DNA of 64,000 nt from Spirirestis rafaelensis WJT71-NPBG6. Its GTDB lineage: Bacteria > Cyanobacteriota > Cyanobacteriia > Cyanobacteriales > Nostocaceae. The stretch is taken from positions 85,802 through 149,801 of the forward strand of contig JAHHID010000005.1 in assembly GCA_019359015.1 (NCBI GenBank), given 5' to 3'. The notes under the pieces are model-generated. The model worked only from the letters and a program-made list of their open reading frames with translations, was not told where the DNA came from and did not search any database. Shown here one piece after another: positions 18,602-35,079 of this stretch; position 1 is the stretch's first letter; every line of letters starts with the position of its first letter. A program made the translations under genes and the position numbers.

Positions 18602-19219
18602 ATGTCTAGACAAACTATTCATGAGAGAATTTTTCTCAAAACTTTGACAATTAGTGCAAGCAAAATATCTACTAAGTTGACAGCAACACTCGAATACTGG
18701 CGTTTTCGGCTGATTGAATCTGTTCCATTTCTGATTGCTTGTGCAGTATTTCTAAGCGTTATCAGCCTGAAAAGTCCTATCCTGCTTTTTTGCTTACTTG
18801 TTGGTAGTTTAATTACAATAATTATACAGCAAATTGGGCAGCAGGTGCATCTACCGAAGCGATCGCTTATCTTGTTACAAATCTTAGCAGTAGCGATCGT
18901 CTTGAGTTTATTTTGGTTAGACTATTTTGCAGTTCCCGCACAAGCCCAATTTTTTAAGAGAGCCGAAGATTTCTTTAAACTGAATCTGACCACACAAGGA
19001 GATGCAGCAAACAATGGGACCCAAGCAGTTAGTTTAATATTCAACGTGTTGCGGGCAATTTACCTACTTTACATAGCAGTTTCTTTGGTCGGTGTTATTA
19101 ACGCAGTTCGCAAAGATGAAGATTGGCAAACTATCGCCAGAACTCCCTTATTAGTAGTTGTCGCCGTCACAATTGCTGATGTTCTCACAGGTTTTATAAT
19201 TGGGGACACTAGTCAATAA
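18602..19219 (+). CDS. VirB2/TrbC-like membrane protein (T4SS-like cluster)
   Basis: 205 residues. The N-terminal part has hydrophobic segments at about 40-56, 58-78 and 88-106, then a signal-peptidase-like site VPAQAQ at about 112-116. The remaining ~90 residues carry two TM helices (about 142-166 and 182-200) joined by a short charged loop (NAVRKDEDW). This resembles VirB2/TrbC pilins, where processing after AxA leaves a small two-helix pilin. The long N-terminal extension is unusual. The ATG at 18602 has AGAGGA about 7 bases upstream. As first gene before VirB3- and VirB4-like genes it sits where the pilin is normally encoded. The assignment is by topology and order, not by sequence similarity. 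Confidence 0.55.
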   Translation: MSRQTIHERIFLKTLTISASKISTKLTATLEYWRFRLIESVPFLIACAVFLSVISLKSPILLFCLLVGSLITIIIQQIGQQVHLPKRSLILLQILAVAIVLSLFWLDYFAVPAQAQFFKRAEDFFKLNLTTQGDAANNGTQAVSLIFNVLRAIYLLYIAVSLVGVINAVRKDEDWQTIARTPLLVVVAVTIADVLTGFIIGDTSQ

Positions 19220-19258
19220 TTTATTTAGATAAAATGAAAAAAAGCTAAGAAATTTTCC

Positions 19259-19627
19259 ATGACTCAAGACAAAGACAAAGACTTTCGTCCAGTCAATCAA
19301 ATTTTAGGAAGCCAACCTTCATTAGGACCAATTCCCGCCGATCAAGTTCTTCCTTGGACGCTTATTGCCTTAGCTGCTTATTTTATCATCAACGGAATTT
19401 TTGGGGGATTTTTTTCAGACGACTTTCAAAAATGGTTGTGGACGGTATTAATTACTGTTTGGGGAATGGCGACTTGGTGGATATTAACAGGTGGTAGGAG
19501 TTGGCGCTTTTTAAGTAAATTTGTTGGTGTTCCGGCTTGGACTAGAGGCTTTGCTCGTTATCAAAGCATACTATTCGTTAACCATGAAGCAAAAAATCGG
19601 AAAACAAAGCGTCGGCGTCGCAAGTAG
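19259..19627 (+). CDS. VirB3-like small membrane protein (T4SS-like cluster)
   Basis: 122 residues with a hydrophilic start, two closely spaced TM segments (about 32-50 and 56-76), and a basic C-terminal tail (NRKTKRRRRK). It lies directly before, and overlaps by 44 bases, the VirB4-like ATPase gene. VirB3 proteins are short two-TM inner-membrane partners of VirB4 and are nearly always encoded just upstream of it, so position and topology support the call. No sequence motif is decisive. Translation is likely coupled to the ATPase gene. Confidence 0.55.
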   Translation: MTQDKDKDFRPVNQILGSQPSLGPIPADQVLPWTLIALAAYFIINGIFGGFFSDDFQKWLWTVLITVWGMATWWILTGGRSWRFLSKFVGVPAWTRGFARYQSILFVNHEAKNRKTKRRRRK

Positions 19628-22328
19628 CGAAAGATTAACACCATTTGAAGATGCTTTACACCTAGCGACAATGTTACGCATCTCGCTTGGAGGACGTGAT
19701 ATTGGTGCTTATCTTTTGACAAAGGGAACTCAAAAAAATAGATTTTGCTTTGTTTTTGGTTTTGAATGTCGAGGTATTCATACAACTTTAAGAACAGACC
19801 AAATAGATGTAATTATTAATAATATTGAATCTGGTTTAAAAGATATTCCCGGTAATGAGAGAATAACTTTTCATTTGAGCTCTTTTAGTTCAGATAAAAA
19901 GCGACAAAAAGAACTAAGTTCAATCATCAAAAAAACGCCATCAAAAGATATAAAATACTTGTTAATGGCGGAAAGGGCAAGAACAAAAGAACTTACTGTT
20001 TCTGGTATTCGCAAACCTAAATTTCTCCGAATTTATGTAACTTACACCATTGAACCAAACTCCAACAATGCAGATGATTCGATAGAAAAGCTTTTAGCTA
20101 AAGCTGAATTGTGGTGGTTGAAATTCAAGGGAGAGATGCTAGAAGTTGAAAATCAGCGCATAGAAACCATTGTTAGCAATGCTTATAAACAAGGTTTTTG
20201 TCGCTGGGAACAAATATTATCTAATCAAATGGCGTTGGATGTTAAGCCTTTGACTAGTCAGGAACTTTGGGGAGAAATATGGAGAAGATTTAATGATACC
20301 CCACCGATAGATATTCCGCAATTAATGACTTTAGATGAAAATGGACTGCACGAAGAAGCTTATTCAGAATTAGCTAGTACTAAATTACTTGTAGATAATA
20401 TCCACAGTACAACTTTGCTGATGGAATCTAGTGTACCTTGTGCTAATCGGTCGTGGGTTCATGTTAAGAATAATTATATTGGTGCATTAACATTTTTAGA
20501 AAAACCTGGCGGTTGGCAGAATAAATCTTCTCAACTGCGCTATCTATGGGAATTGTTAGCCAGAGAAACGGTTGTTGATACAGAGATTTTTTGTGAGTTA
20601 ACTGCGGCAAATCCAGCATTGGTAAAAAATACTTTGCAACGAGTGCTGAAGCAGTCGAATATGACAGCAACGATGGCTCAAGAAAAAAGCCGAACTATTG
20701 ATGTCAACGCTCAATTAAAGTTAAGAAAATCCGTAGCAGCACAAGAACAATTATATGAAGGTGCAGTACCTATTTACACGAGTATAGCCATTTTTGTACA
20801 TCGTCCAACTGTGGAGAAATTAGACGAAGCAACAAGATATATTGAAAACTGTTTTCAACGTCCAGCAAGGGTAATTAGAGAAACAGAATATGCTTGGAAA
20901 ATTTGGCTGCAAACTTTACCGATAGTTTGGGAAGGTTTGTTAGCAAAACCCTTCAACCGTCGTCAGTTGTATTTAACAAGTGAAGTTCCGGGATTAATGC
21001 CTTTAGTATTAACTAAAGTTGGCGATCGCGAAGGTTTTGAATTGATTGCGGAAGAGGGAGGAACACCGGTATATTTAGATTTATTTAACGAGCATAAAAA
21101 TTTAGCGCTGTTTGCGACAACTCGCGCTGGTAAATCAGTATTGGTGTCAGGAATTTTAACTCAAGCTTTGGCGCATAATATTCCGGTAGTAGCATTAGAT
21201 TTCCCCAAACCAGATGGTACATCTACCTTCACCGACTATACAGAGTTTATGGAGAAGAGTGGAGCATACTTTGATATCTCAAAACAATCGAATAACTTGT
21301 TTGAGCAGCCAGACTTGCGATCGCTAGATCCAGAACAACAGCGCGATCGCCTGCTCGATTATACTGGCTTTTTAGAATCAGCCTTAATGACAATGGTTTT
21401 AGGGTCATCTACAGATAATCCACTGTTGTCGCAAACCGTGCGATCGCTTCTTAATTTGGCTTTAACAGCTTTCTTTGCTGATGAAGGTATAAAAGAGCGA
21501 TATCGAATAGCAATTGCAGGAGGATTTGGCAGTCCAGCTTGGCAGAAAACCCCCACATTAAGAGATTTTCTCTATTTTTGCACAACAGAACATCTACAAA
21601 TCAACTCTGTAAGTGGCAGAGTTGAAGATGCCTTGAGTCAAATTCAATTGCGCTTGCGGTTTTGGCTTTCTAGTCGTGTAGGACAATCCATTTCTGCACC
21701 ATCTAGCTTTCCCACCGATGCACAACTTTTGGTATTTGCTCTGAGAAACCTCTCAGATAATGAAGATGCAGCAGTGTTATCTTTAAGTGCTTATTCAGCA
21801 GCATTACGACGCGCACTCAGCAGTCCAGCTTCGATATTCTTCATTGATGAAGCACCAATTCTATTTGAATTTGACCAAATTGCTGACTTAGTTGGCAGAA
21901 TTTGTGCCAACGGTGCCAAAGCTGGAATTAGAGTTATTTTATCAGCACAAGACCCCGATACCATCGCCAAATCTAAAGCCGCATCTAAAATTTTACAAAA
22001 CTTAAGCACACGATTAATAGGACGCATTCAACCCGTTGCGGTAGATAGTTTCATGCAAATATTAAAATATCCCCGTGAAATTATTTCTCGTAATGCTTCA
22101 GAAAGCTTCTTTCCTCGCAAAGAAGGCATTTATAGCCAATGGCTGTTAGATAATAACGGTATTTATACCTTTTGCCGCTATTATCCAGGTTACGAACAAT
22201 TAGCAGTAGTTGCTAACAACCCCAACGAACAAGCTGCACGGACTAAAATAATGCGAGATCACAGCGATAAGTATGAAGCAATTTCTACATTTGCACGTCA
22301 GTTAGTAGCTTCGCTACGTGGTAGTTAA
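19584..22328 (+). CDS. VirB4/TraC-like ATPase (T4SS-like cluster)
   Basis: This 914-residue cytoplasmic or membrane-associated ATPase would power assembly or substrate movement. The Walker A motif ATTRAGKS is at about residues 510-520 and Walker B SIFFIDEAP at about 750-758, followed by a conserved-looking SAQDP segment. The N-terminal ~450 residues match the divergent N-terminal region of VirB4/TraC proteins, and the C-terminal half is the RecA-like motor. I chose the ATG at 19584 (MKQKIGKQS); the frame extends upstream to 19521 but would lie inside the VirB3-like gene. There is no evidence for a VirD4 coupling-protein architecture (no N-terminal TM pair). This is the best-supported member of the cluster. 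Confidence 0.8.
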   Translation: MKQKIGKQSVGVASSERLTPFEDALHLATMLRISLGGRDIGAYLLTKGTQKNRFCFVFGFECRGIHTTLRTDQIDVIINNIESGLKDIPGNERITFHLSSFSSDKKRQKELSSIIKKTPSKDIKYLLMAERARTKELTVSGIRKPKFLRIYVTYTIEPNSNNADDSIEKLLAKAELWWLKFKGEMLEVENQRIETIVSNAYKQGFCRWEQILSNQMALDVKPLTSQELWGEIWRRFNDTPPIDIPQLMTLDENGLHEEAYSELASTKLLVDNIHSTTLLMESSVPCANRSWVHVKNNYIGALTFLEKPGGWQNKSSQLRYLWELLARETVVDTEIFCELTAANPALVKNTLQRVLKQSNMTATMAQEKSRTIDVNAQLKLRKSVAAQEQLYEGAVPIYTSIAIFVHRPTVEKLDEATRYIENCFQRPARVIRETEYAWKIWLQTLPIVWEGLLAKPFNRRQLYLTSEVPGLMPLVLTKVGDREGFELIAEEGGTPVYLDLFNEHKNLALFATTRAGKSVLVSGILTQALAHNIPVVALDFPKPDGTSTFTDYTEFMEKSGAYFDISKQSNNLFEQPDLRSLDPEQQRDRLLDYTGFLESALMTMVLGSSTDNPLLSQTVRSLLNLALTAFFADEGIKERYRIAIAGGFGSPAWQKTPTLRDFLYFCTTEHLQINSVSGRVEDALSQIQLRLRFWLSSRVGQSISAPSSFPTDAQLLVFALRNLSDNEDAAVLSLSAYSAALRRALSSPASIFFIDEAPILFEFDQIADLVGRICANGAKAGIRVILSAQDPDTIAKSKAASKILQNLSTRLIGRIQPVAVDSFMQILKYPREIISRNASESFFPRKEGIYSQWLLDNNGIYTFCRYYPGYEQLAVVANNPNEQAARTKIMRDHSDKYEAISTFARQLVASLRGS

Positions 22329-22349
22329 CATGGCAATTTTAAAAAGACC

Positions 22350-22455
22350 TAACCCCCTAACCCCCTTCCCTTGTAGGGAAGGGGGAGGAAATTTCCCTCC
22401 CCTACAAGGGGAGGGACGACTTTGACTGGCGTCAAAGTCAGGGAGAGGTTTTGCC
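22350..22455. repeat. GC-rich palindromic repeats
   Basis: Three adjacent hairpins: CCCTTCCCTTGTAGGGAAGGG, a TTTCCCTCCCCTACAAGGGGAGGGA stem, and GACTTTGA/TCAAAGTC (22418-22439). They belong to the same broad family as 7735-7800 and sit between the ATPase and VirB5-like genes. Confidence 0.7.
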
Positions 22456-22532
22456 TTTAATATGGTTGAACTACTTAAGAGAATAAAGTACAAAATTACA
22501 TAAGTTGTAGAGATTTTTCCCGATTCAGACCT

Positions 22533-23330
22533 ATGAAAAAAATCGCCCTTTTGACACTTTCTTTATCATTCCTCATCATCCTACCAGCAACAGCGCAACT
22601 AGGCAAAGTTTGGACTGATTTTCAATCATATTCTACAGATTTACAAAATTATTTAACAAATAATGTCAACGACAGTTTAAAACCTGTAGAATTTCAATCT
22701 CAAAATGCCATTACTGGTGCAACAGGAGAATTGAGTATACCTAATCCTGTTGAGGCTGGAGAAAGAGTTAGTACAGATATATTTCTCAACTCTATATCAG
22801 ATAAGTTTGAAAATAACCCTGTAGTACGTTCAAGTTTAGTTAGTAATGAAATAAATCGTTTAATTACTCGTAGTTCAGCCGCAGGTGTCTTGGGTGTGAA
22901 TGGTCAAATTAGATCAAAAACAAAGCTACAAGAGACTGAAAATAGACTGGAAAATATTCGCGTATTTGCCGATGATGTTGACGATGATCCAGAAAATATT
23001 CTCGATAAGATTAATGGACAAATTACTCAAATTCTTGGTACACGAAATTTAACTCAGGCAGCTTTAACCCAAGCAGCACAATTGTTAGGTGGACGCGAAC
23101 AATACCAACAAACTCAAATACAACGTGAACAAGTAAAAATTGTAGCCGAAACACTTGGTCAAACAATACAGACGAATCAATCTTTGCAATACACTAATTT
23201 AAATCTCGCAAGTCTTTCTCAGCAAATGGAAGATACAAATCGTGCTAGAAGAGTAGATGCATCCGCAGAAGCAGCGCGACTTTTGCGAACCACTTCTCAA
23301 ACAGATTTGTTTGGCAGAGAAAATAAATAA
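22533..23330 (+). CDS. VirB5/TrbJ-like exported helical protein (T4SS-like cluster)
   Basis: 265 residues with a clear signal peptide (KKIALLTLSLSFLIILPATAQ, cleavage at about 21). The mature part is almost entirely helical and Gln/Asn-rich, with long amphipathic segments (SKTKLQETENRLENIRV; REQVKIVAETLGQTIQTN) and no Cys. VirB5/TrbJ proteins are exported, helical minor pilus components encoded between the ATPase and the polytopic VirB6/TrbL gene. That is the position here. Sequence similarity is not visible by eye, so the call rests on topology and order. Confidence 0.5.
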   Translation: MKKIALLTLSLSFLIILPATAQLGKVWTDFQSYSTDLQNYLTNNVNDSLKPVEFQSQNAITGATGELSIPNPVEAGERVSTDIFLNSISDKFENNPVVRSSLVSNEINRLITRSSAAGVLGVNGQIRSKTKLQETENRLENIRVFADDVDDDPENILDKINGQITQILGTRNLTQAALTQAAQLLGGREQYQQTQIQREQVKIVAETLGQTIQTNQSLQYTNLNLASLSQQMEDTNRARRVDASAEAARLLRTTSQTDLFGRENK

Positions 23331-23433
23331 AATTCATGATTAAGAATGTATTCTTACGTAGTGAGCCAGCGCGGTCTTCTCCCAACGGGGGCTGCTTCAC
23401 CGCATTGGCTCCCCATGAGTGGCTGGCAAATCC

Positions 23434-23530
23434 GTTCGCGCAGCGTCTCGTAGAGAGGAGAAGGGTGAGCGATTTACCACTCATATCAAGGCTCTTAAGC
23501 GCTGTTAGCGGAGCTTTCCCGTAGGGTAGC
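23434..23530. repeat. dispersed repeats in the VirB5-VirB6 spacer
   Basis: GTTCGCGCAGCGTCTCG (23434-23450) recurs at 17914-17930 and, inverted, near 54743-54760. AGCGCTGTTAGCGGAGCTTTCCCGTAGGGTAGC-type sequence (23498-23530) recurs inverted at 62841-62896. The 284-base spacer has no supportable gene. Confidence 0.7.
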
Positions 23531-23614
23531 CATTACGACAAAAAAACCTCTATTTACACTTCTCAGAAATAATTTAATTGAGCCTTAACTTCCTTTTAAA
23601 GGAAATATATAAGA

Positions 23615-24664
23615 ATGAAAGATATTTTCCCTATTTTTTTAATTCAAATTGGCATCAATGATGTTGTCGGTAATGGAGCCACAACTGCTAGAAGTATTGC
23701 CGAAGGTTGGGATAAGCAATGGGTAGATTTATTACAAAATGATACTATTAATAATTTATATGGAGCGCTGACGACTCTGGGTGTCTTTTTTGCCGTCGGA
23801 ACCCTACTGTTCTTTATGCTACAGTGGCTAAGAGATGCTATCAACAGCGACTTTTCGCGTCCAATATCGGCTTTAATTTGGCCTTTTGTAGTAGTGATAC
23901 TATTAACCAATTCCGGAAATGGCACTGTATTGTCGAATTTAACACTAGGGGTAAGGAATTTTCTGAATACGGTAAATCAGCAAGTAGTGACAACAGCAGA
24001 TGCCAATCGAACTTATCAACAAGCATTGAATATGACTGTTGGTGAAGAAATAGCCGGTTCTTTATTGCGTCCTTGTCAGTCACTAACTGGTGAACAACAA
24101 AATCAATGCTTTGTCAAAGCTAAGGAAAAAGCTGACACCCTCTGGCTGGAATATAGAAATTTATACGGAGATCAACCTTGGATAGATAGACTAGAAAATA
24201 AAGTAAATAATATTACATATAATACAGCTAGCATCTCCGAAAATTCATTTAATTCTTTCTTAGGTTCTACAGTCCAAATTAGTATCAAAAACTTTTTAAT
24301 TTCATTGCAATATGCTTTTCAAAATTTGATAGAAGCTACAATGTTGCTGATAGCAGCTTTGGGACCATTAGCTGTGGGTGGCTCTTTACTACCTGTAGCT
24401 GGTAAACCAATTTTTGCATGGCTCACCGGGTTTTTATCGATAGGGATTTCTAAGATTTCATTTAATATTATTGCCGTATTAACTGCCGCAGTTATTGTTA
24501 ATGGACCAGGACAGGATGTTAATGCCGATCCAGACTTAATGTGGTTTATAATTTTTCTGGGAATTTTAGCACCGATTGTATCTTTATTTGTAGCTGCTGC
24601 TGGAGGATTTGCAGTCTTTAGTGCTATCAGCAATACGGCTTCGTGGGTGAGGGAGAGGGTATAA
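23615..24664 (+). CDS. VirB6/TrbL-like polytopic membrane protein (T4SS-like cluster)
   Basis: 349 residues with about six hydrophobic segments: two near 45-100 (TLGVFFAVGTLLFFMLQW; ALIWPFVVVILL), then a hydrophilic stretch to ~210, then a dense C-terminal set (NLIEATMLLIAALGPLAVGG; ISKISFNIIAVLTAAVIV; WFIIFLGILAPIVSLFVAAAGGFAVFSA). VirB6/TrbL proteins form the inner-membrane channel and show this clustering of helices around a central loop. The start ATG at 23615 has AAAGGA about 10 bases upstream. It is followed after 24 bases by the first VirB8-like gene, suggesting co-translation. Confidence 0.6.
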   Translation: MKDIFPIFLIQIGINDVVGNGATTARSIAEGWDKQWVDLLQNDTINNLYGALTTLGVFFAVGTLLFFMLQWLRDAINSDFSRPISALIWPFVVVILLTNSGNGTVLSNLTLGVRNFLNTVNQQVVTTADANRTYQQALNMTVGEEIAGSLLRPCQSLTGEQQNQCFVKAKEKADTLWLEYRNLYGDQPWIDRLENKVNNITYNTASISENSFNSFLGSTVQISIKNFLISLQYAFQNLIEATMLLIAALGPLAVGGSLLPVAGKPIFAWLTGFLSIGISKISFNIIAVLTAAVIVNGPGQDVNADPDLMWFIIFLGILAPIVSLFVAAAGGFAVFSAISNTASWVRERV

Positions 24665-24688
24665 ATCTCAAGTAAGGGGGATGAATAA

Positions 24689-25510
24689 ATGGTACGTTTA
24701 CTGGAGAAAAGACAACGAACAGGAAGTATTTTAACAATTTTTGCGATCGCTACCTTCAGTTTGCATCTCTCAGCTCTATTTGTATTAATATTTCAAGGGA
24801 TAAATATTCGCCAACTCAGCTTAAGAAAACCTCCTAACTTCGTTCAACTGATAGATGGTAAACCAACAGATGTTACTGATGATTTGGAAAGAGAACCAGA
24901 AGCAATTCGCCAATTCGTCAGTAAAACCATGACATCAATGTTTAACTGGTCAGGAAAACTTCCACCACAATCTATCGAAGAAGTCACACAACCTCAAGCA
25001 GATGCAGGAATATCAATTCAAAGTTCACGCGGTGGTAACCAAAAAGTTAGTACTACAAGTTGGATAGCCAGTTTTGCCTTATCTGAAGATTTTCGCAAAG
25101 GTTTCTTAAGCCAAATTGCGGAAATGACACCACCAGAAATTTTTGCTAATAATCCCCGTCAAGTTATTTCAGGACAGTTAGTTATTAAGCGAGTTTATCC
25201 ACCTGAAAAAATTGGTTTGGGTAAATGGCGAGTTGGGATGATAGCCGAGCTGATTCAAAAAAAACAAGCTGACAATAGAACAATAGTAACTCGTTTTAAT
25301 AAAGATTTACTTGTCCGTGCGGTAGATTCTTTTCCTTCTCCACAAGTTGATAATACCACTGTTTTGCAAAAAGCAATTTATAGCGTCCGCGCCGATAAAC
25401 TAGAAATTTACGAAATTCGTAACTTATGTTTAATCGATGAATACAATAACCAAAATGGAGATATAAATGTATGCGGTAATAGACAAAGAACTGATAGTTT
25501 TATCAAATAA
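24689..25510 (+). CDS. VirB8-like bitopic protein, copy 1 (T4SS-like cluster)
   Basis: 273 residues: a short cytoplasmic N-terminus, one TM helix at about 14-38 (TIFAIATFSLHLSALFVLIF), then a periplasmic domain. The domain shares its opening with the next gene (VQLIDGKP...LEREPEAIRQFVSKTMTSMFNWS) and later shows an alternating strand pattern (VIKRVYPPEKIGLGKWRVGMIAELI), as in the NTF2-like fold of VirB8/TraE proteins, which nucleate T4SS assembly. About 50 residues more than copy 2, largely in the middle and at the C-terminus (two Cys). Nothing else in the window has this architecture apart from the paralogue beside it. Confidence 0.6.
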   Translation: MVRLLEKRQRTGSILTIFAIATFSLHLSALFVLIFQGINIRQLSLRKPPNFVQLIDGKPTDVTDDLEREPEAIRQFVSKTMTSMFNWSGKLPPQSIEEVTQPQADAGISIQSSRGGNQKVSTTSWIASFALSEDFRKGFLSQIAEMTPPEIFANNPRQVISGQLVIKRVYPPEKIGLGKWRVGMIAELIQKKQADNRTIVTRFNKDLLVRAVDSFPSPQVDNTTVLQKAIYSVRADKLEIYEIRNLCLIDEYNNQNGDINVCGNRQRTDSFIK

Positions 25511-25536
25511 GTTTTAATTTTTATAGGTAAATATTA

Positions 25537-26199
25537 ATGCAGATACTTAAATCTGAAAATAAGAAAAACAGTATTCTACCATTATTTGCCGTTGCAACAT
25601 TTGGTTTTCATCTGCTCACTTTAGTAGTACTGTTCTTCCACTGGTCTATGTTGCAGCAGTTACAGCGACGATTAACACCTCAAAGCTTAGTGCAACTTGC
25701 TGATGGACGTGCGATAACAGTAGACCCCAAACAGAATTTAGAGCGAGATCCTGAGACAATTCGGCGCTTCGTGGGTGAAACTATGACCTTAATGCTTACT
25801 TGGTCACAGCAACAGCAACCAAAAAGAGTCTGGGAAGTTAGTTCAGAACTGATAGCGAATGAATTGCAGCCCAAATTACAGTCAGAAATTAGTCCGACTG
25901 AAAACTTAAGTAGAGGAACTGAAAATGTATTGGTTATAGAAAGAATTTCTCAACCCACAAAAATAGAAAATGGTAAATGGAAAGTAGAAATGCTTGCTAA
26001 TCAAATAATTTTTACAAATTCTGATAGGTTAGGAAAATCAATTTCTTTTAATAAACAAATTTTAGTGAGAGCAATTGATGAACAAGCTGCTTCACTACCA
26101 AACTCACCGTTACCTTTAAACTTGGCGGCTTATCGACTTGGCGAAGCTAGATTAAAAATTTATAATATCTGTGAAATACAAGATAAAAAATGCACATAA
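25537..26199 (+). CDS. VirB8-like bitopic protein, copy 2 (T4SS-like cluster)
   Basis: 220 residues, a tandem paralogue of the preceding gene with a 26-base gap. The TM helix is at about 12-36 (LPLFAVATFGFHLLTLVVLFF) and the periplasmic domain opens with VQLADGRAITV...LERDPETIRRFVGETM, matching copy 1 position by position. The strand-rich end (VIERISQPTKIENGKWKVEMLANQI) also aligns. VirB8 proteins dimerise, so two diverged copies may form a heteromer. It ends with two Cys (NICEIQDKKCT). Confidence 0.6.
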   Translation: MQILKSENKKNSILPLFAVATFGFHLLTLVVLFFHWSMLQQLQRRLTPQSLVQLADGRAITVDPKQNLERDPETIRRFVGETMTLMLTWSQQQQPKRVWEVSSELIANELQPKLQSEISPTENLSRGTENVLVIERISQPTKIENGKWKVEMLANQIIFTNSDRLGKSISFNKQILVRAIDEQAASLPNSPLPLNLAAYRLGEARLKIYNICEIQDKKCT

Positions 26200-26423
26200 G
26201 ATTCCCAGCTAAACTATACTAAGTAATCGCACGTTGAATTTATATCTAGTCATATTAATTCGTCGTGATGTTGTGCTTCATTCACCTTCCTCTGGAAGCC
26301 TGGAGCTAGACAAACAGAGCTTACCTGCGTGGGCTAATTAGGGTCATTTTTATAGATAAGTGGTGTCACCGCTGAAGATGCTTGCCACAATTGGATTTTT
26401 GAATACTCAATTTAAAATTACTT

Positions 26424-28136
26424 ATGACTCAATATTCAATTCCTTCAGAAAATCTGCCACAAAATCTAATTAGTCCACCCGAGTTAGACACTTTAGATTG
26501 GGAATCACGGATGGCAAGATTGGTTGGCTTGCAAGAAGAATCTTCATCTGCTAATACCGACGAAGCAGTAGAAGAATCAACTTCTTTGTTGCAACCTTCG
26601 TCTGAACCACAAGAAGTTCAGACTAAGGAATCCCTCTCATCTAACCCGTTTGCTAAGTTAGGCTTGGTGGGTGCTAGTACTTTGGGTATAGTTTTGGTGG
26701 CTGGGGTGTTTTTGTCGCAGCTAACGAACACTGGCAAGAAACAGCCAAAAAATAATTCTGCTTCTATACCATCGCAACCAATCAGCGATTCCCGCCCGCA
26801 ACAGCTACAATCAGAACTAGAGACTTTAAAAACTAAATTAGCCCTAACTGAACAAGCAGAAGCGGTGAAAGCAGCACAACAAAAGCTGAGACTTGAAAAA
26901 CCAGCGCCTTCTCCTCAGCTTGCATCTCGACCGACTTCACAACCACAACGGTCAGCTTCTGTCAATACACCGAGGATACCAGTGGAAAGGATACCAACAC
27001 CCGTGCGAACAGTTTATTTGCCTGGTCCCACTGTTGAGCGTATCGTTAAAGTACCCACTGTTCCCCAAAAGGCTATTCCACAAAAGCCTATTCCACAAAA
27101 GGCGATCGCACTAAAGCCTGCTAATTCTCAAATTTTACCATCACGTTTGCCGATAGTTGCACCAAACACTCAGCCAATAGTTACAGCAACTCCCAAACCT
27201 ACACCAGATCCGCTTCAGGAATGGGCAAAGTTAGCAAAAATAGGTAGCTATGGTATGGTTACTATGACTGGGAATAGTGTTCAAGCAGCTACTCCTACTC
27301 CTCCACCTACACCTGTAAATAATACTCAGTTACAGGCAAGAAATACCGAACCAGACGACGAACCGCCAGAAGAGGAAGAGTCAACCCCTCCTGCGGTCAG
27401 CCAAACAAAACAGCAGACCCCGAAATCCGTGCCTGTAGGAACTAAGGCGAAAGGTGTATTTGCGACCGCTGTATTCGGGGAAACTACCAGAGCAACTACT
27501 AATAGCAATAGAAAAGACGAAAGCGGCAAAGACGTATTTGTAGTGCGTTTGAAAGAGCCATTAAAATCTGTGGATGGTGCGATCGCTTTACCTGCTAAAA
27601 CTGAGTTATTAGCTCAAGTTCGTTCTATTTCTGAGCAAGGCTTCCTACAGTTGGATGTAGTCAAAGTTCTTGTCCAAAATAATAACACCTTTACAGAAAA
27701 AAGCTTACCGCCAAATGCAATAACGATTCGCGCTTCTCAAGGTAAACCTCTCATCGCAAGCCAATATTCCAATCAAGGGGGGTCTGGGGTAGGGCTAGCG
27801 GATGTAGGAGCATTCGCCTTGAATGGTATTGGTAAAGCAGCACAGGTATATAATACTCCTGAGACCAGAATCCAGTGCGTCAATAATAATCTTGCTACTG
27901 CTAACAATACTGATAACGGAACTAATATTGTTACTAATAATTGTTTTCAGACCTCCGACTCCAGACGCAACATCTTAGCCGGCGTTTTGGAAGGGGGTGC
28001 GACTACTTTAGGTAACCAAATTAACCAACGCAATCAACAAAATATCTCTAAAAAACTGGCGCAACGCAGTAACGTTTGGTTTTTGCCCGCAGGCAAAGAA
28101 ATTGAAGTATATGTAAATCAAACAACGCAATTTTAA
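26424..28136 (+). CDS. VirB10/TrbI-like envelope-spanning protein (T4SS-like cluster)
   Basis: 570 residues: an acidic cytoplasmic N-terminus (1-76), one TM helix at about 79-99 (LGLVGASTLGIVLVAGVFLSQL), a coiled-coil-prone stretch (LQSELETLKTKLALTEQAEAV), a long Pro-rich linker (about 155-330) with PQKAI/PQKPI five-residue repeats, and a C-terminal beta domain (GTKAKGVFATAVFGE; VVRLKEPLKSVDGAIALPAKTELLAQV). That end also has a Gly-rich VGLADVGAFALNG segment and a final WFLPAGKEIEVYV strand. This order is the one seen in VirB10/TrbI, which spans both membranes and forms the outer-membrane pore with VirB9 and VirB7. It is one of the firmer members of the cluster. Confidence 0.68.
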   Translation: MTQYSIPSENLPQNLISPPELDTLDWESRMARLVGLQEESSSANTDEAVEESTSLLQPSSEPQEVQTKESLSSNPFAKLGLVGASTLGIVLVAGVFLSQLTNTGKKQPKNNSASIPSQPISDSRPQQLQSELETLKTKLALTEQAEAVKAAQQKLRLEKPAPSPQLASRPTSQPQRSASVNTPRIPVERIPTPVRTVYLPGPTVERIVKVPTVPQKAIPQKPIPQKAIALKPANSQILPSRLPIVAPNTQPIVTATPKPTPDPLQEWAKLAKIGSYGMVTMTGNSVQAATPTPPPTPVNNTQLQARNTEPDDEPPEEEESTPPAVSQTKQQTPKSVPVGTKAKGVFATAVFGETTRATTNSNRKDESGKDVFVVRLKEPLKSVDGAIALPAKTELLAQVRSISEQGFLQLDVVKVLVQNNNTFTEKSLPPNAITIRASQGKPLIASQYSNQGGSGVGLADVGAFALNGIGKAAQVYNTPETRIQCVNNNLATANNTDNGTNIVTNNCFQTSDSRRNILAGVLEGGATTLGNQINQRNQQNISKKLAQRSNVWFLPAGKEIEVYVNQTTQF

Positions 28137-28296
28137 GAGTTACAATTTGCAGAGAATGCACCGATGCCCCCAACACCTACCGAAGGGTGTCGCACTAAGT
28201 CCACCTAATCGCGGACTACGGGAAATTAAGGGTTTTATACGTGTAGTTCTACCCTTATAGGGTAGGTGGTTCTATCTATTTATCTCAAATGCAGCC

Positions 28297-28872
28297 ATGA
28301 AAAACGAGACAAAATTTTCCGGAAAAACCCCAGATAAATCTTATTTATTACATCTGGCTTCCTTAATTTTCTCGGCTGCAATTTTATTAGTTGCAGGTCG
28401 GGTTTTAGCTAATAATGCCGTTCTTCGTTCGATGTTTTCCTGCCAAGCACAGGGTTTGGGGGGAGCAACACCTATTATCGATATCTGGTATCAGCAAGGT
28501 ACAAACTTAAGTTTTATTCAAGCGGGAGAAACAATAAAGAAAGTTTGGTTAAACGATCCTTCACAGGTAACTATAGATTTTGACGGTCCGATGTGTATGC
28601 AGTTTGGTCAAGACCGTAATGTTACTCAAGGAGATTGTAAAAACTCAGCCGCGAATGTAATTCAACTTAGACGAATTCAAAAACTGAAAATTGCCGGATT
28701 GCCTAATACTAGTAATACGCTTTTAACAGTAATTACTGAAAAACAAGGCAAAACAAAGTTGTATGCATTTCGAGTAATATATGGCGAAGGTAGCCCTGAA
28801 TATAGCACTTTAGCAATTTTCCCTGACCCTCCTTCCAATAATCAAGCGGCTTGTGTCAGAACTGCAAAATAA
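28297..28872 (+). CDS. VirB9/TrbG-like periplasmic protein (T4SS-like cluster)
   Basis: 191 residues with a hydrophobic N-terminal helix at about 19-40 ending in RVLA, either a signal peptide or an anchor. The mature part has a VirB9-like beta pattern: a strand with TNLSFIQAGETIKKVWLNDPSQV (here read as the conserved gap-filling opening of the family), then QKLKIAGLPNTSNTLLTVIT, then a KTKLYAFRVIYGEG strand resembling the Y-x-F/L end of the VirB9 N-terminal domain. It is shorter than usual VirB9 (about 250-300) and may lack the C-terminal domain that pairs with VirB7. It follows the VirB10-like gene after 160 bases. Confidence 0.55.
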   Translation: MKNETKFSGKTPDKSYLLHLASLIFSAAILLVAGRVLANNAVLRSMFSCQAQGLGGATPIIDIWYQQGTNLSFIQAGETIKKVWLNDPSQVTIDFDGPMCMQFGQDRNVTQGDCKNSAANVIQLRRIQKLKIAGLPNTSNTLLTVITEKQGKTKLYAFRVIYGEGSPEYSTLAIFPDPPSNNQAACVRTAK

Positions 28873-29003
28873 TTTTAAAAGAATGACCGCAGGCTTATTT
28901 CATCAAGATTAATCATTCGTAAAGTTGCCCGCAGAGATATTTGGGAAACGTCTCTACAGTGCAAAATTATAATCACAACTCTTGAAAGGAATATTATATT
29001 AAA

Positions 29004-29111
29004 ATGAATAACGATTTAGTAATTTTTCTTATTAGTATTGGTGTACTTGTTTTGTATCTCGTCTTCTCGGCGCTGACTGAGATGGGCACCAAACTACCTT
29101 GGAAAAAATAA
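29004..29111 (+). CDS. 35-residue single-TM peptide downstream of the T4SS-like cluster
   Basis: The ATG at 29004, with GAAAGGA about 14-20 bases upstream, encodes a 35-residue peptide: short polar start, one TM helix (VIFLISIGVLVLYLVFSAL) and a short basic end (PWKK). It lies in the same direction as the T4SS-like genes, 131 bases after the VirB9-like gene and before the convergent kinase gene. It has no lipobox, so it is not a classical VirB7. It may be a small accessory membrane subunit, or unrelated. Confidence 0.5.
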   Translation: MNNDLVIFLISIGVLVLYLVFSALTEMGTKLPWKK

Positions 29112-29167: not shown

Positions 29168-32100
29168 TTACCACCGAGGATTAGCCATAATTAACGCCTC
29201 TGCCGCAGAACTATCTAATGGACGGGAGAAAAAATATCCCTGTCCGTATTCACACTTCAGCTTTCTCACAAGTGCTAATTGCTCTTGAGTCTCCACCCCT
29301 TCGGCAGTCACATCCATACCTAGTTTGTCTGCCAGCGTGACAATTATCTCAATAATTTCTAAATTCCTGTTATTAGCGTCCATCGGGCTGACGAAGGAAC
29401 GGTCAATCTTCAACACATTAATCGGAAACGTATGGAGACGACCTAATGAGGAATAGCCCGTACCAAAATCATCAATTGATAACTCAATGCCCATCTCTCG
29501 AAGTTGTGACAGCGCGGTATTTGCCTCATCACCATTTTCCATAATTGCGCTTTCAGTAATCTCTAACACCAGACTGCACGCATCAAGACCAGTCGAGCGC
29601 AAAATTTCTGCAATCTGCTCAATCAAATCCGCCTGGTAAAATTGCTTGGCACAGAGATTAACACTGATTTTATCTAGAAAGCTGGTAGGATAGCGCATCT
29701 GCCAGACTTGCATCTGGCGGCAAGCCTCAAAAAGCACCCAGTAGCCAATCTCGACAATCAGTCCAGTTTCCTCCGCTAGGGGGATAAAATCTGCCGGATA
29801 AACCAGACCACGCTCTGGATGCTGCCAGCGCAACAGAGCCTCAAAACCTGAAATTGTGCCACTAGAAAGCGAAACAATCGGTTGGTAATAAACCCGAAAC
29901 TCCTGGCGTTCAATTGCTCGACGCAGATCGGTCTCTAACTGCAATCTGTCCACAGCATTAGTATACATATCTGGGTTGAACAGCTCGTAGCGTGCCCTGC
30001 CCAGCACCTTAGCTCGGTACATTGCCGTGTCAGCATCCCTCAGCAGGTTTTCTGGTTGGTCATAGGTGAGTATCGAATTCAGAGCGATGCCAATACTTGC
30101 CGTAGTGAAAACTTCTTGCCCGTCAAGGTCAAAGGGTAACGCCAGTTGCTGTTGAATTAGCTCAACCACCTCAATTGCCTCTGACAAATTCTCGATTCCC
30201 TCAAGCAAAATTGTAAATTCGTCTCCCCCAAGCCGTGCAGCTGTATCTATCGAGCGTAGGCAAGCTTTTAGCCTGCTTGCTATTTTAATCAGAAATTGGT
30301 CTCCAACTAGATGTCCGAGGCTGTCATTGATCACCTTAAAACGATCCAAGTCCAGAAACAGCACAGCAAATAAATAATTCTCCTGCTGTTTAGCTCGCTC
30401 GATCGCATCTTTTAAGCACTCCATAAACCAAGCTCGGTTGGGTAAACCTGTGAGTGCATCGTGAAACGCATTGTGCAGTAGTTGTTCCTCTGCCCGTTTG
30501 CGCTCAGTGATGTCATGGGTGATGCCAAGAATTTGATGAATTTCCCCATGCTCATTTAAAATCGGCACGTAGGTGACAACTATGGTAAAAGAGCAACCAG
30601 GCAAACTGATATTGCATTCTCCGGTTTGCTTGGTGCGCGTCTCCACAGTTTTTTGCAGAAGTGGTAAATACGCATTCGTGACTTCTTTTGGGTGTATCTC
30701 GTCATCCGTACGACCAATATATGCCTCTAGAGGAAAGCCACCGCGATTAACTCCGAAAGCTTTGAGAATGCTGTTTAAATCGAGTTCAGAAGATGCTTTT
30801 GAGTCGGTGGATAAAATTGTTGTGGTAGTCTTGGTGGAAGTTGACGGCGTTTTGGCAAAAAACTGGGGATACTGTTGTTCCAAATCCTTGACCTTTGCTT
30901 TTGCTCCCCAGCGAACATAACCATAGTGAGCTTTTGTCATGTATAGTTGGGCAAACTCCTGCATTCCACGCGCTAGATAAAAATTTGCCGCTAACTCATA
31001 AGCTAATGCTTCCTCTTGAATGTATCCGTTATCCCTTGCTCCTTTTATAGCTCGTTCATACAAATCCATTGCTTCAACAACTTGACCCAAAACTCGCGCT
31101 TTTTCTGCCTCGACTAGATCGTAAGTGTGCTGAAAATTCATCGGCGCATGAACTGCCCAAGTTTTCATTTCTTTTTGGTTAGCTGCCACTTGTTTTATAT
31201 ATTGTTTTCGTTCTCGATCTTCTTGGTTAAGATAATTGGCTAGAAGAGAGAGAGAGTAATATAAATTATGTTCAGCATAAGCCAATAGACCTGACAAAGA
31301 TTGTTTATTGCCTGCTGCATTTTCGGCACTCTTAACTGCGGCAGTATAATTCTTGAATAAATAATTGAGCCGAGTTTTAGCTAGCTCGATGACAAACAGA
31401 GATTGAAGGTTATTATTTATTTGTAAAATGGGTAGCATTTCAGTTTCATTGAATAGCTCTCCCACCAGTCTGTTGGATTCTCTAGAATCCGCCATTAAAT
31501 TTAATACTAATTGACCCCATATTTTAGCATAATGCAGAGAAAAGTCCTGTTTAATAGATTGCACTAGGCTGATATAATTTTTATAGGTTTTATTGACAGA
31601 TTCTAAAGGGTCTCCCACTAAAAGCAAATTAGAGCAATAGTTAATAGCTGCATAAGAAGCATATTCTATATCTCCAGTTTCCATTAATACTTTAAGCGTT
31701 TCCTGCAAAGATTCTAAAGTGTTGCGTTTATGTTCTTTCCAGGGTCTGATAAAACAGTTAAACAGTAAGTTAACCTTACCTTCTATTTCTGAACTATCAA
31801 ATTGCTTCAACATTTTCAACGATAGCTTGCCAAGCTGATAGCCAAAATCGAGGTTACATTGCGTCTTACAAAGAAGGAAACCATATAAAACATAGGCAAA
31901 AGCAGCAAAAGATGAATTTCCATAGTTTACGCATAGCTCCATCATTGTAAATATAATTAATGGAGCTAGTGAGGAATTCGTTGTATGAACCGGAGACCAT
32001 ATAGTCTTTAAAATTCGCATAGCTACAAGCTTATCTGGGTCAGTCATTGGTGGAAGATTGTATAAATCATCAATGACCAATTGGCTTGGCGGTGATTTTG

Positions 32101-34774
32101 ACAGAGATATGCCTAACATCTTCAAAAATTGCAGCCCAATATCTATTGATGCCTGCATCTGGTTTTGAGCGATATAAAGCTGAATTTTAGTTTCATACAC
32201 ATTAGCTTTTTCGCGTACAGTCTTAACTTGTTGTAGAACAACATTAGACAGCAATTCGCTTCGTTCGTAGTTAGTGTTTAAATATTCCGCATATACTGCT
32301 GACTCATACAAACTTAGCGTCAAGTCGTACTGAGTCTGCCAACTATCTTCTGCTAATAGATTCAGCCCTACATTCAAATACTTAACTGCTGCTTCATAAG
32401 CCATTGCTGACTTTGCTTTCTCACTTGCCCTCAAATTCAGTTTGGCGATTTCATCGCGTTCGGCTTGATCACTTATAAATTCACTGCCCAGATTGAGATG
32501 ATCGACTATTTCAAATAACTTCTCTGATAATGCTTCTGGTGCAGTATTATGCAACAGCAAGCGACCTATTTTTAAGTGAATAGCTGTTTTTTCCGTCTCA
32601 TCAATTAAGGCATAAGCCGCTTGTTGTACCCGGTCATGCAGGAATTTAAAGCTAACTTCATTTATCGCAAAATCATCTTCAGTTTCTATCAATTTGTACT
32701 TATTATCCAAAGGAACAATTAAGCCTTTTTGGATGGCGCTTAACAAATCAGCCAACGCTTCAGCAGGTTGATGTTGATAGATAATCCCTAAAGTGGATAA
32801 ATCGAATTTATTGCCAATGCAAGCGGCTAACTGCAATACCATTTGGGTGGAAGTTGGTAACTTGCCAATCTTAGCCGCCATCAATTCCACCACATTGTCT
32901 GTGATATCCTTAGCTTGGATTTGTGCTACATCCCATTGCCACCCCCCTACCCCCCTCTGTGCCCCCTTAGTAAGGGGGGTGGGGGATTGAGGGGGGTACT
33001 CAAAAGTTAATAACCCTTCGGTGTAGAGCGACTTCAAAAACTCAGTGGTGAAAAAGGCATTACCTTGGGTTTTGTCATACACTAAATCGGTTAACGGCTG
33101 CGTTGAAGTGGGTTGAGACTTTAAAGCCTCAGCGATGAGAGCGTTGACATCTTGCACAAGCAGATTATCTAAGTGAATCGATGACAACACTGCTTGTTTT
33201 TTTTCAATTTCTTCTAACGTCATCATCAGCGGATGGCTAGGATTAACTTCGTTGTCGCGATACGCACCGATGATGAGTAAATATTGAATAGTGGCATCGC
33301 TCATGATTGTTTTGAGCAGCTTCAGTGATGCTTTATCTGCCCATTGCAAATCATCGATAAATAAGACTAAAGGATGTGACTTTTGGCAAATAACTTTGAT
33401 AAAGTTTTGAAAGACTAAATTAAAACGATTTTGTGCTATGGATGCTTCCACTTGGACGACAGGTGGCTGAGTACCAATGACTCGTTCCAAATTAGGGATA
33501 ACATCTATCAAAACTTGTCCATTATTGCCAACTGCGGCTAATATTTTCTCTCGCCATTGATTTAATACTGCTTCAGTTTCAGTCAGCAGTTGTTTGCATA
33601 AATCATCGAAAGCTTGAGAGAGCGCGTAGTAAGGAATATTGCGTTGGTACTGGTCAAATTTGCCCCAAATGAAACTCCCACGTCTTGCAGTAATTGGTTT
33701 ATGGACTTCTCGAACCAAGGCAGATTTGCCGACACCGGAATATCCAGTAACCAAAATCATTTCAATTTGGGATTGGGTAGAAATTGAGGAATTCTCTGTT
33801 TCTCCACCTGCCACTCTCGTAAAAGCTTCTAGGAGAGTTTCAATCTCTCGCTCCCTACCATACAATTTCTGCCCAATAGTAAATCGCTCGGAAATATCTT
33901 GTTCACCAAGAGCAAAGACATCAATTTGCCCATTTGTTTGTAGCTGGTGCAGACATATCTCTAAATCCGCTTTTAGACCATAAGCTGATTGGTATCGGTC
34001 TTCAGCGTTTTTTGCCATTAACTTCATGACAATATCTGAGACGATTGATGGTAGGGAAACGACATCTCGTGTCCCTACAACCTCATGCGGTGGCACGGGT
34101 TGTTTGGCAATATGACTATGCACCAATTCCAACAAATCTAAACTCTGAAATGGCAAAATACCCGTTAGCAATTTATAGAAGGTAGCACCTAAGGAGTAAA
34201 AATCGCTGCGATAATCAATTGCCCGATTCATCCGTCCTGTTTGTTCAGGTGAAATATAAGCGAGTGTGCCTTCTAAAATATTAGGATTACTCAATGTGGG
34301 ATTTTCTCGTGAAAGTACTGTTGAAATCCCAAAGTCGATAATTTTGACTTGTCCGGTGGTTGGATTGAGAACAATATTGCTGGGGTTGATGTCTTTGTGG
34401 ATAATGTTGGCAGCATGAATTTGACCTAAAATGTCAGTGATGGCGATCGCCAACTTCAAAAACTCACATAACTCAAGTTGACCCGCTATTGCCAACAGAT
34501 CCAACGAGTCACCACCGAAATCTTCTAAAACCATCACGACTGCTTCAGCGTCCCGAAAAAGGGCGTAAGCATCCACCACTCCTGGGATTGTCAGGTTACG
34601 GGTGACTTCATATTCTTGCTTAAACCAAGCAGTGCGCTCTGGAGTAGGATAGGACTCTTTGAGCATTTTCAGCACAACGGGTTGCTCCGTATCCACCCGC
34701 CGACCACGATAAACTAGAGAATTGGCGCTTTCATACAGTTGCGCCACCAGGTGGTAAGCGGAAATCGTCAACAT
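29168..34774 (-). CDS. giant Ser/Thr kinase - AAA ATPase - PAS - GGDEF - EAL signalling protein
   Basis: 1868 residues from the ATG at 34774 (MLTISAYHLVAQLYES, the usual start of this kinase class; an upstream ATG at 34828 adds 18 residues). Order: protein kinase (about 1-270; catalytic HKDINPSN, DFGIS, and the activation-end TLAYISPEQTG), AAA-type ATPase (about 300-480; Walker A GYSGVGKS), a long helical TPR-like region (to ~1280), PAS (about 1290-1410), GGDEF (motif RLGGDEF at about 1510, with the product-inhibition RxxD five residues before it), and EAL (FEALLRW at about 1640, DDFGTGYSS). Cyanobacterial proteins of this type often end in a histidine kinase or cyclase; here both c-di-GMP synthesis and breakdown domains are present. 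A palindromic repeat is translated in frame at 32937-32998. Confidence 0.9.
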   Translation of the reverse strand: MLTISAYHLVAQLYESANSLVYRGRRVDTEQPVVLKMLKESYPTPERTAWFKQEYEVTRNLTIPGVVDAYALFRDAEAVVMVLEDFGGDSLDLLAIAGQLELCEFLKLAIAITDILGQIHAANIIHKDINPSNIVLNPTTGQVKIIDFGISTVLSRENPTLSNPNILEGTLAYISPEQTGRMNRAIDYRSDFYSLGATFYKLLTGILPFQSLDLLELVHSHIAKQPVPPHEVVGTRDVVSLPSIVSDIVMKLMAKNAEDRYQSAYGLKADLEICLHQLQTNGQIDVFALGEQDISERFTIGQKLYGREREIETLLEAFTRVAGGETENSSISTQSQIEMILVTGYSGVGKSALVREVHKPITARRGSFIWGKFDQYQRNIPYYALSQAFDDLCKQLLTETEAVLNQWREKILAAVGNNGQVLIDVIPNLERVIGTQPPVVQVEASIAQNRFNLVFQNFIKVICQKSHPLVLFIDDLQWADKASLKLLKTIMSDATIQYLLIIGAYRDNEVNPSHPLMMTLEEIEKKQAVLSSIHLDNLLVQDVNALIAEALKSQPTSTQPLTDLVYDKTQGNAFFTTEFLKSLYTEGLLTFEYPPQSPTPLTKGAQRGVGGWQWDVAQIQAKDITDNVVELMAAKIGKLPTSTQMVLQLAACIGNKFDLSTLGIIYQHQPAEALADLLSAIQKGLIVPLDNKYKLIETEDDFAINEVSFKFLHDRVQQAAYALIDETEKTAIHLKIGRLLLHNTAPEALSEKLFEIVDHLNLGSEFISDQAERDEIAKLNLRASEKAKSAMAYEAAVKYLNVGLNLLAEDSWQTQYDLTLSLYESAVYAEYLNTNYERSELLSNVVLQQVKTVREKANVYETKIQLYIAQNQMQASIDIGLQFLKMLGISLSKSPPSQLVIDDLYNLPPMTDPDKLVAMRILKTIWSPVHTTNSSLAPLIIFTMMELCVNYGNSSFAAFAYVLYGFLLCKTQCNLDFGYQLGKLSLKMLKQFDSSEIEGKVNLLFNCFIRPWKEHKRNTLESLQETLKVLMETGDIEYASYAAINYCSNLLLVGDPLESVNKTYKNYISLVQSIKQDFSLHYAKIWGQLVLNLMADSRESNRLVGELFNETEMLPILQINNNLQSLFVIELAKTRLNYLFKNYTAAVKSAENAAGNKQSLSGLLAYAEHNLYYSLSLLANYLNQEDRERKQYIKQVAANQKEMKTWAVHAPMNFQHTYDLVEAEKARVLGQVVEAMDLYERAIKGARDNGYIQEEALAYELAANFYLARGMQEFAQLYMTKAHYGYVRWGAKAKVKDLEQQYPQFFAKTPSTSTKTTTTILSTDSKASSELDLNSILKAFGVNRGGFPLEAYIGRTDDEIHPKEVTNAYLPLLQKTVETRTKQTGECNISLPGCSFTIVVTYVPILNEHGEIHQILGITHDITERKRAEEQLLHNAFHDALTGLPNRAWFMECLKDAIERAKQQENYLFAVLFLDLDRFKVINDSLGHLVGDQFLIKIASRLKACLRSIDTAARLGGDEFTILLEGIENLSEAIEVVELIQQQLALPFDLDGQEVFTTASIGIALNSILTYDQPENLLRDADTAMYRAKVLGRARYELFNPDMYTNAVDRLQLETDLRRAIERQEFRVYYQPIVSLSSGTISGFEALLRWQHPERGLVYPADFIPLAEETGLIVEIGYWVLFEACRQMQVWQMRYPTSFLDKISVNLCAKQFYQADLIEQIAEILRSTGLDACSLVLEITESAIMENGDEANTALSQLREMGIELSIDDFGTGYSSLGRLHTFPINVLKIDRSFVSPMDANNRNLEIIEIIVTLADKLGMDVTAEGVETQEQLALVRKLKCEYGQGYFFSRPLDSSAAEALIMANPRW
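32937..32998. repeat. GC-rich palindromic repeat inside a coding region
   Basis: CCCCCTTAGTAAGGGGG with flanking C/G runs matches the spacer repeats near 7757 and 22380. Here it is translated in frame, giving YPPQSPTPLTKGAQRGVGG in the ATPase region of the kinase protein. Confidence 0.75.
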
Positions 34775-35079
34775 TTGAGTCAATTTGATACAAGATGCGG
34801 TAATAGCTAAATAGCCTCTGTGTACCAAGCGCGAGTGCGAGGATCAAAGGTGGCGCTAACTCGAATTACTTGATGCGATTACCTTGGTTATCAGTGGTCT
34901 AGATATGGTAATTCCCACCCGTTGATTAGTCAATGACTTGGATTACTACTAAACTATGACTTACGCACTGTACAAATTGAATATCATCTAATAAAAACGC
35001 GATTCGGTCGTTTTCAAGAAAATTCTTACAGCAGTTTTCAGGTAATTAAACTATACGCTGACCTCACTTCCATTCCTCT

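Follow-up and report, generated by a model that had tools for sequence, protein, structure and literature searches.

The window, that is, the whole 64,000-nucleotide stretch of DNA analysed here, derives from a 150-kb draft contig of Spirirestis rafaelensis WJT71-NPBG6 and encodes a core of VirB type, made up of nine plus-strand genes between positions 18602 and 28872 (Table 1). Judging by orthologues in Nostoc PCC 7120 and other genomes, which reside on multi-megabase contigs, the cluster is likely chromosomal. We place the virB4 start at 19584; the open reading frame of the original prediction began at a TTG at 19521.

Table 1 Genes of the VirB-type cluster and the adjacent peptide, with positions in the window
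Feature	Length (aa)	Position	Strand	Characteristics
VirB2-like pilin candidate	205	18602..19219	+	Long hydrophobic leader; hydrophobic segments past a processing-like site
VirB3-like protein	122	19259..19627	+	Hydrophobic segment; 3' end overlaps the virB4 start
VirB4-like ATPase	914	19584..22328	+	Family matches and Walker motifs
VirB5-position protein	265	22533..23330	+	Hydrophobic segment at the N-terminus, remainder largely polar
VirB6-like polytopic protein	349	23615..24664	+	Hydrophobic segments; homology and position
VirB8-like protein, first copy	273	24689..25510	+	Structure model compared with solved T4SS chains
VirB8-like protein, second copy	220	25537..26199	+	Paralogue of the first copy (37% identical)
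VirB10/TrbI-like protein	570	26424..28136	+	Pfam TrbI
VirB9-like protein	191	28297..28872	+	Matches the N-terminal (I-layer) domain; structure model
Membrane peptide	35	29004..29111	+	Outside the conserved unit

With scores below the curated cut-offs, VirB4 matched the NCBIfam families TraC-F (3.9e-14) and VirB4_CagE (8.6e-13), and VirB10 matched Pfam TrbI. The Walker motifs previously noted in VirB4 proved to be present in all 80 loci compared (the best 80 of 150 confirmed relatives from one scan of named genomes), with an identical Walker A throughout. VirB4 was the sole ATPase recognised among the cluster proteins, and family-profile searches of the nine products returned no VirB11. When VirB4 and VirB10 were each run as a single sequence against the PDB, no match was found, and profile searches with the B9, B8, B10 and B6 alignments yielded one chance-like match apiece; structure comparison was needed. 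The best matches of the structure models of the first VirB8 and of VirB9 were solved T4SS chains, at middling model confidence. Four further parts are putative assignments from the homology and order common to cyanobacterial conjugative plasmids. The cluster thus holds a VirB4-family ATPase together with VirB8, VirB9 and VirB10, VirB9 being absent from some loci of the window's type, hereafter called resident.

These family matches and models confirm the nine-gene VirB-type core put forward by the original prediction, which had called for profile and structure checks of the VirB8-, VirB9- and VirB10-like proteins: VirB10, VirB9 and the first VirB8 copy all led to T4SS families or structures. 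A 35-residue membrane peptide was dropped from the proposed cluster, as it has a significant match near the cluster in 4 of the 80 loci (on the opposite side in L039); its end, EMGTKLPWKK, is conserved. Further downstream, positions 29168-34828 encode a 1886-aa protein with Ser/Thr kinase, AAA, PAS, GGDEF and EAL domains. A defence-system reading was also considered and rejected: the PADLOC profile mad8 matches VirB4 (1.9e-15), a hit that we read as a shared ATPase domain because the other eight proteins match nothing in PADLOC.

Resident and conjugative gene contents

Cyanobacterial conjugative plasmids such as Trichormus variabilis plasmid A and Nostoc pCC7120alpha (virB4 alr7206, virD4 alr7213) carry homologous B2, B3, B4, B6, B8, B10 and B9 genes in the same order (the class MPFc in the excerpted text of PMC8600333), and the VirB4 of most of those listed is ~52-62% identical to that of the window. 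Following the same excerpted text, we term these conjugative kin MPF_C. Homology and order common to the conjugative plasmid cores would place the cluster in this class too, while the PLSDB tool types L114, L118 and L119 as MPF_T.

Gene by gene, the homology to conjugative loci is uneven. For the VirB2-like protein it spans residues ~83-204, with an AQA-Q processing-like site noted by eye around residue 116; family profiles returned no VirB2 match for this product. The VirB3-like homologues are 39-50% identical and lie directly before virB4, and the VirB6-like homologues, found in the same place, are 33-39% identical. The protein at the VirB5 place matches no VirB5 family profile and, in some conjugative loci, has weak matches (20-30%) at the corresponding position; it is kept across resident loci.

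Comparison of gene content in 20 further loci, of which L028-L033 are short and mostly duplicate others and L119, L125 and L129 are truncated where their record or contig stops, revealed two types. Conjugative-type loci have a VirB4 41-62% identical to the query. VirD4 and a protein that we call X were both seen in seven of them (L114, L120, L123, L126, L127, L130 and, via the extension L131, G170), and six of these seven carry a single VirB8, no VirB8 being detected in L130. Resident-type loci have a VirB4 at ≥75% identity and two VirB8, and are without X and VirD4: the VirD4 and X queries that succeed in conjugative loci gave no match in the 80 resident loci (1,632,179 bases, with some loci cut short). 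Plasmid A, typed MPF_T by PLSDB, illustrates the difference: along with a MOBV relaxase it encodes VirD4, protein X, a single VirB8 and a VirB9 of 246 aa. In the resident cluster VirB8 is present twice and VirB9, where there is one, measures 191 aa, while X, VirD4 and a nearby relaxase are all lacking. Protein X itself (399 aa at L114:25937-27136) sits between VirB9 and VirD4 in the loci that show both and has no match in Pfam.

To this comparison we added a VirB4 tree of 27 resident rows (the window, 22 chosen from the 80 loci, L118, L122, L124 and L128) and 9 conjugative-type rows. A 100/100 branch parts all 27 resident rows from the 9 conjugative-type ones. With L130 as the outermost row, the residents nest within the conjugative rows (99/93), the root resting on a long branch (long branches are those of L121, L125 and L130). 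This nesting suggests a single capture of the resident clade from conjugative rows, the direction of which we infer.

Distribution, neighbours and coupling proteins

A resident VirB4 at 80-100% identity and free of internal stops is present in at least 150 of the 217 genomes of the family of S. rafaelensis, each match listed coming from a different genome; orthologous VirB4 proteins are mostly named 'hypothetical protein' in the protein database. Across a phylum-wide sample of 386 genomes, VirB4 at ≥75% was found in at least 23, namely 22 of the 43 family members and 1 of the 343 others (G133), a minimum count with at most two candidates scored per genome. Of 114 plasmid records in which a VirB4 relative was found, part of them inspected, one fell in the resident identity range (76%): an 880-kb replicon of Gloeothece verrucosa PCC 7822 (L118). 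A resident-type VirB9 (71% identical) was also listed on P0193, a 170,638-bp plasmid-labelled contig of Nostoc sp. NIES-4103. The two resident-type clusters seen outside the family, L118 and L122 (G133:C237), have two VirB8 each; VirB9 was not found in either, and their B5-B10 block is rearranged relative to B2-B4.

Within the 80 loci, the order of the nine-gene unit is kept among the genes present. In 60 loci the ORF caller returned complete reading frames for all nine genes, and the remaining 20 reflect contig-end cuts or gene(s) that it missed. Closer inspection of 11 loci with caller gaps showed that the missed gene(s) could be aligned without internal stops in ten, three of which are also without B9; the eleventh, L089, is decayed and lacks B6, the first VirB8 and VirB9. 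A profile search that was positive in four control loci did not find VirB9 in L092, L098, L099, L118, L122/L132, L124/L133 and L089 (L113 ends before the VirB9 position could be judged), and VirB9 is therefore dispensable in part of the clade.

Selection was assessed by pairwise Nei-Gojobori dN/dS over seven chosen pairs and nine genes. The values ranged from 0.028 to 0.689, that is, below 0.7 in all 63 gene-by-pair combinations. VirB4, VirB3 and VirB6 were the most constrained (0.03-0.19; VirB6 alone 0.05-0.16), and VirB10 and VirB5 the least, reaching 0.69 in the window's genus.

The synteny survey across cyanobacteria proposed alongside the original prediction showed that, from genome to genome within the family, the unit stays the same and its neighbours differ. 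Of the gene families flanking the cluster within 3-4 kb, the commonest occurred in 14 of 63 loci, and we rejected a functional neighbour gene on this ground. The window's own neighbours do not travel with the cluster, with the exception of the downstream kinase, which recurs in L036. Downstream of the cluster in the closest relative of Nostoc PCC 7120 lies a long ORF (L055:18679-22743) that is TamB-like by eye.

A VirD4 coupling protein was found neither by a PF02534 profile search of the S. rafaelensis genome, which was positive in 150 of the 217 family genomes, nor by searching that genome with a cyanobacterial VirD4 protein that finds VirD4 in other loci. At least 150 family genomes carry the resident cluster; of the 150 listed, 113 have VirD4 elsewhere in the genome, and 37, S. 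rafaelensis included, gave no VirD4 match. Among these 37 assemblies, 34 are ≥90% complete and seven are single-contig. A PF03432 search of the S. rafaelensis genome found no relaxase linked to the core, which lies on contig C5, and returned three matches on contigs C52, C76 and C82, which in this 143-contig draft are neither tied to nor separable from the replicon of the cluster. These relaxase genes in a VirD4-less genome possibly mark mobilisable plasmids. The earlier statement that no VirD4 or relaxase lies within reach therefore stands at the locus and, for VirD4, in the entire genome. The view that the cluster is a resident envelope machine and not a conjugative element likewise gains support from the lack of VirD4 in the genome and from a unit kept beside changing neighbours, help in trans being conceivable in the 113 genomes.

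Possible links to nitrogen starvation and heterocysts

In Nostoc PCC 7120 the VirB4 bears the protein-database name all0469, and that of Nostoc parmelioides (L055), where six genes follow virB4, is 99.2% identical to it. For all0465, Table 1 of PMC10406281 gives a FurC box 91 bases from the ATG. This box is found with 0 mismatches in L055, directly before the second VirB8 gene and ~64 bases from the ORF start, the two distances presumably reflecting another start codon or ruler. Counting from the box, all0464 would be VirB10 and all0463 VirB9, and gene order would make the window's VirB9-like protein the counterpart of all0463, a gene not named among the 120 database matches listed. VirB10 and VirB9 are separated by 12 bases in L055 and are thus likely to be co-transcribed.

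Table 6 of Simm et al. 2015 (PMC4365693) places all0463 among unknown-function genes of heterocyst-specific groups; that paper reports the gene as absent from Nostoc azollae and, from the data of Flaherty 2011, as induced 7.7-fold 12 h and 10.6-fold 21 h after nitrogen step-down, a second-hand measurement of one gene whose identity is deduced from order. As this deduced VirB9 counterpart is reported to be induced ~8-11-fold, the cluster may be used in or around nitrogen-starved heterocyst-forming filaments. The excerpted text of Larsson et al. 2011 (PMC3141437) counts two TrbI-like genes among heterocyst-specific orthologues, and PMC3141674 contains no occurrence of all046 or all047.

Regulatory sequences gave no general signature. 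The DIF+ motif TCCGGA occurred in none of 78 upstream regions, and the NtcA-like GTAN8TAC in 11 of 78 versus 6.7 expected, a count reached in 12 of 200 shuffles, so that a nitrogen-type promoter was rejected. FurC control as a conserved feature was likewise discarded, the exact box being present in L055 only; the best of 71 other loci with a called second VirB8 had 5 mismatches, and the window had 7. Nor is the cluster strictly a heterocyst or nitrogen-fixation gene set, as ruled out by G133 (cluster present, no nifH found over the cut-off), by G338, G051 and G425 (nifH present, split in G425, and no VirB4 match found) and by Nostoc azollae (all0463 absent). Pieces of nifH lying kilobases apart were seen at G425:C1:1302160-1309219, G284:C1:4102855-4108849 and in G562:C250, and would fit the heterocyst excision elements that interrupt this gene.

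Possible functions and significance

Starting from the directly established parts list, the conservation of the unit, the lack of VirD4 and X, two VirB8 paralogues and dN/dS below 1, we consider it probable that the cluster is a chromosomal VirD4-less T4SS core, most likely working as an exporter or (pseudo)pilus machine and not as a conjugation system. Its ancestor would have been a conjugative element of the cyanobacterial type that shed X, VirD4 and the relaxase on a single occasion, at the root of the resident clade. VirB4 would power assembly of a VirB2/VirB5 fibre by way of inner-membrane VirB3, VirB6 and VirB8 and an envelope ring of VirB9 and VirB10. As VirB4 is the sole ATPase recognised in the cluster and a coupling protein is lacking, the machine is unlikely to export cytosolic DNA, for whose recruitment there is no VirD4. 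Its substrate may instead be delivered to the periplasm by Sec and picked up there, a route reported for Ptl, or the end product may be the fibre, which has been proposed for Bartonella Trw. Ptl, Brucella VirB and Bartonella Trw belong to other T4SS lineages and possess VirB11, unlike the resident cluster, among whose proteins none was found. What they have in common with the latter, as described in PMC12857230, is a VirB core without coupling protein; section 20 of that review describes Ptl as lacking VirB5, whereas the resident cluster has a VirB5-position protein. Two-step periplasmic export or a fibre as end product would best fit the VirD4-less class of that section. Granted an exporter or (pseudo)pilus machine, periplasmic export or a fibre is the probable form, with another use a minor option and DNA uptake of the ComB kind a slighter one.

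The ComB kind of uptake, in which a pseudopilus powered by VirB4 would draw DNA in as far as the periplasm, to be recombined or used as nutrient, also has to be weighed as a reading of its own, and we consider it unlikely. Cyanobacterial transformation uses type IV pili, flanking genes, whatever their kind, accompany the cluster in 14 of 63 loci at most, and no competence link was seen. The likeness is one of parts, VirB4 being the sole ATPase recognised in the cluster: according to section 20 of PMC12857230, Helicobacter pylori ComB consists of VirB2-4 and VirB6-10 homologues with neither VirD4 nor VirB11, of which VirB2-4, 6 and 8-10 are common to the resident cluster, although ComB has no VirB5 and the resident cluster keeps a protein at that position besides a second VirB8.

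It is similarly doubtful that the resident core helps conjugation in trans by serving the VirD4 and relaxases of visiting plasmids. Such a role would suit the 150 of 217 family genomes with a VirD4, among them 113 of the 150 listed with the resident cluster, as well as the three relaxases without VirD4 in S. rafaelensis; yet the 37 VirD4-less cluster genomes still keep a VirB4 free of internal stops, the VirD4 loci inspected have a core of their own, and VirB8 duplication with loss of X suggests a changed role. Most improbable is a decaying relic of an integrated conjugative element. The disappearance of VirD4, X and relaxase, the loss of VirB9 in some loci, the three genes missing from L089 and the fast-evolving VirB10 and VirB5 of the window's genus, with dN/dS values of up to 0.69, would agree with decay, but all 63 dN/dS values are below 0.7, with VirB4, VirB3 and VirB6 at 0.03-0.19, Walker A is identical in 80 of 80 loci, all nine ORFs are called in 60 and, in ten more, the missed genes align without internal stops, and the neighbours change between loci.

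Relaxase-less ('MOBless') T4SSs with cyanobacteria among the carriers, and a suggested function in protein secretion, were described by Guglielmini et al. 2011 (PMC3158045), where the excerpted text does not specify, for the cyanobacterial cases, a locus, a gene set, a distribution or a link to nitrogen. The main text of the 2025 review PMC12857230 has no word beginning 'cyanobacteri', and no paper treating the cluster as a secretion system was found in the open-licence full-text literature. Relaxase-less cyanobacterial T4SSs have been on record since 2011; the nine-gene unit as defined here, its distribution, its doubled VirB8 and the likely nitrogen link were not found in the open-licence literature searched.

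The cluster amounts to a large envelope machine retained by most of the genomes surveyed in a family that serves as a model of bacterial multicellularity and in which septal junctions are the known routes of intercellular exchange. One speculative scenario, which we regard as rather unlikely, is that a conjugation core was captured once in the ancestry of heterocyst formers, stripped of its DNA loader and given a second VirB8, and became a developmentally induced conduit or fibre between vegetative cell and heterocyst of one filament, that is, a T4SS for multicellularity. If functional, the cluster would to our knowledge be the first T4SS without a coupling protein to perform a house-keeping role in a photosynthetic bacterium and, should the nitrogen link hold, the first to do so in cell differentiation. 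Taken side by side, the resident and conjugative loci give a before-and-after view of the possible domestication of a conjugation apparatus.
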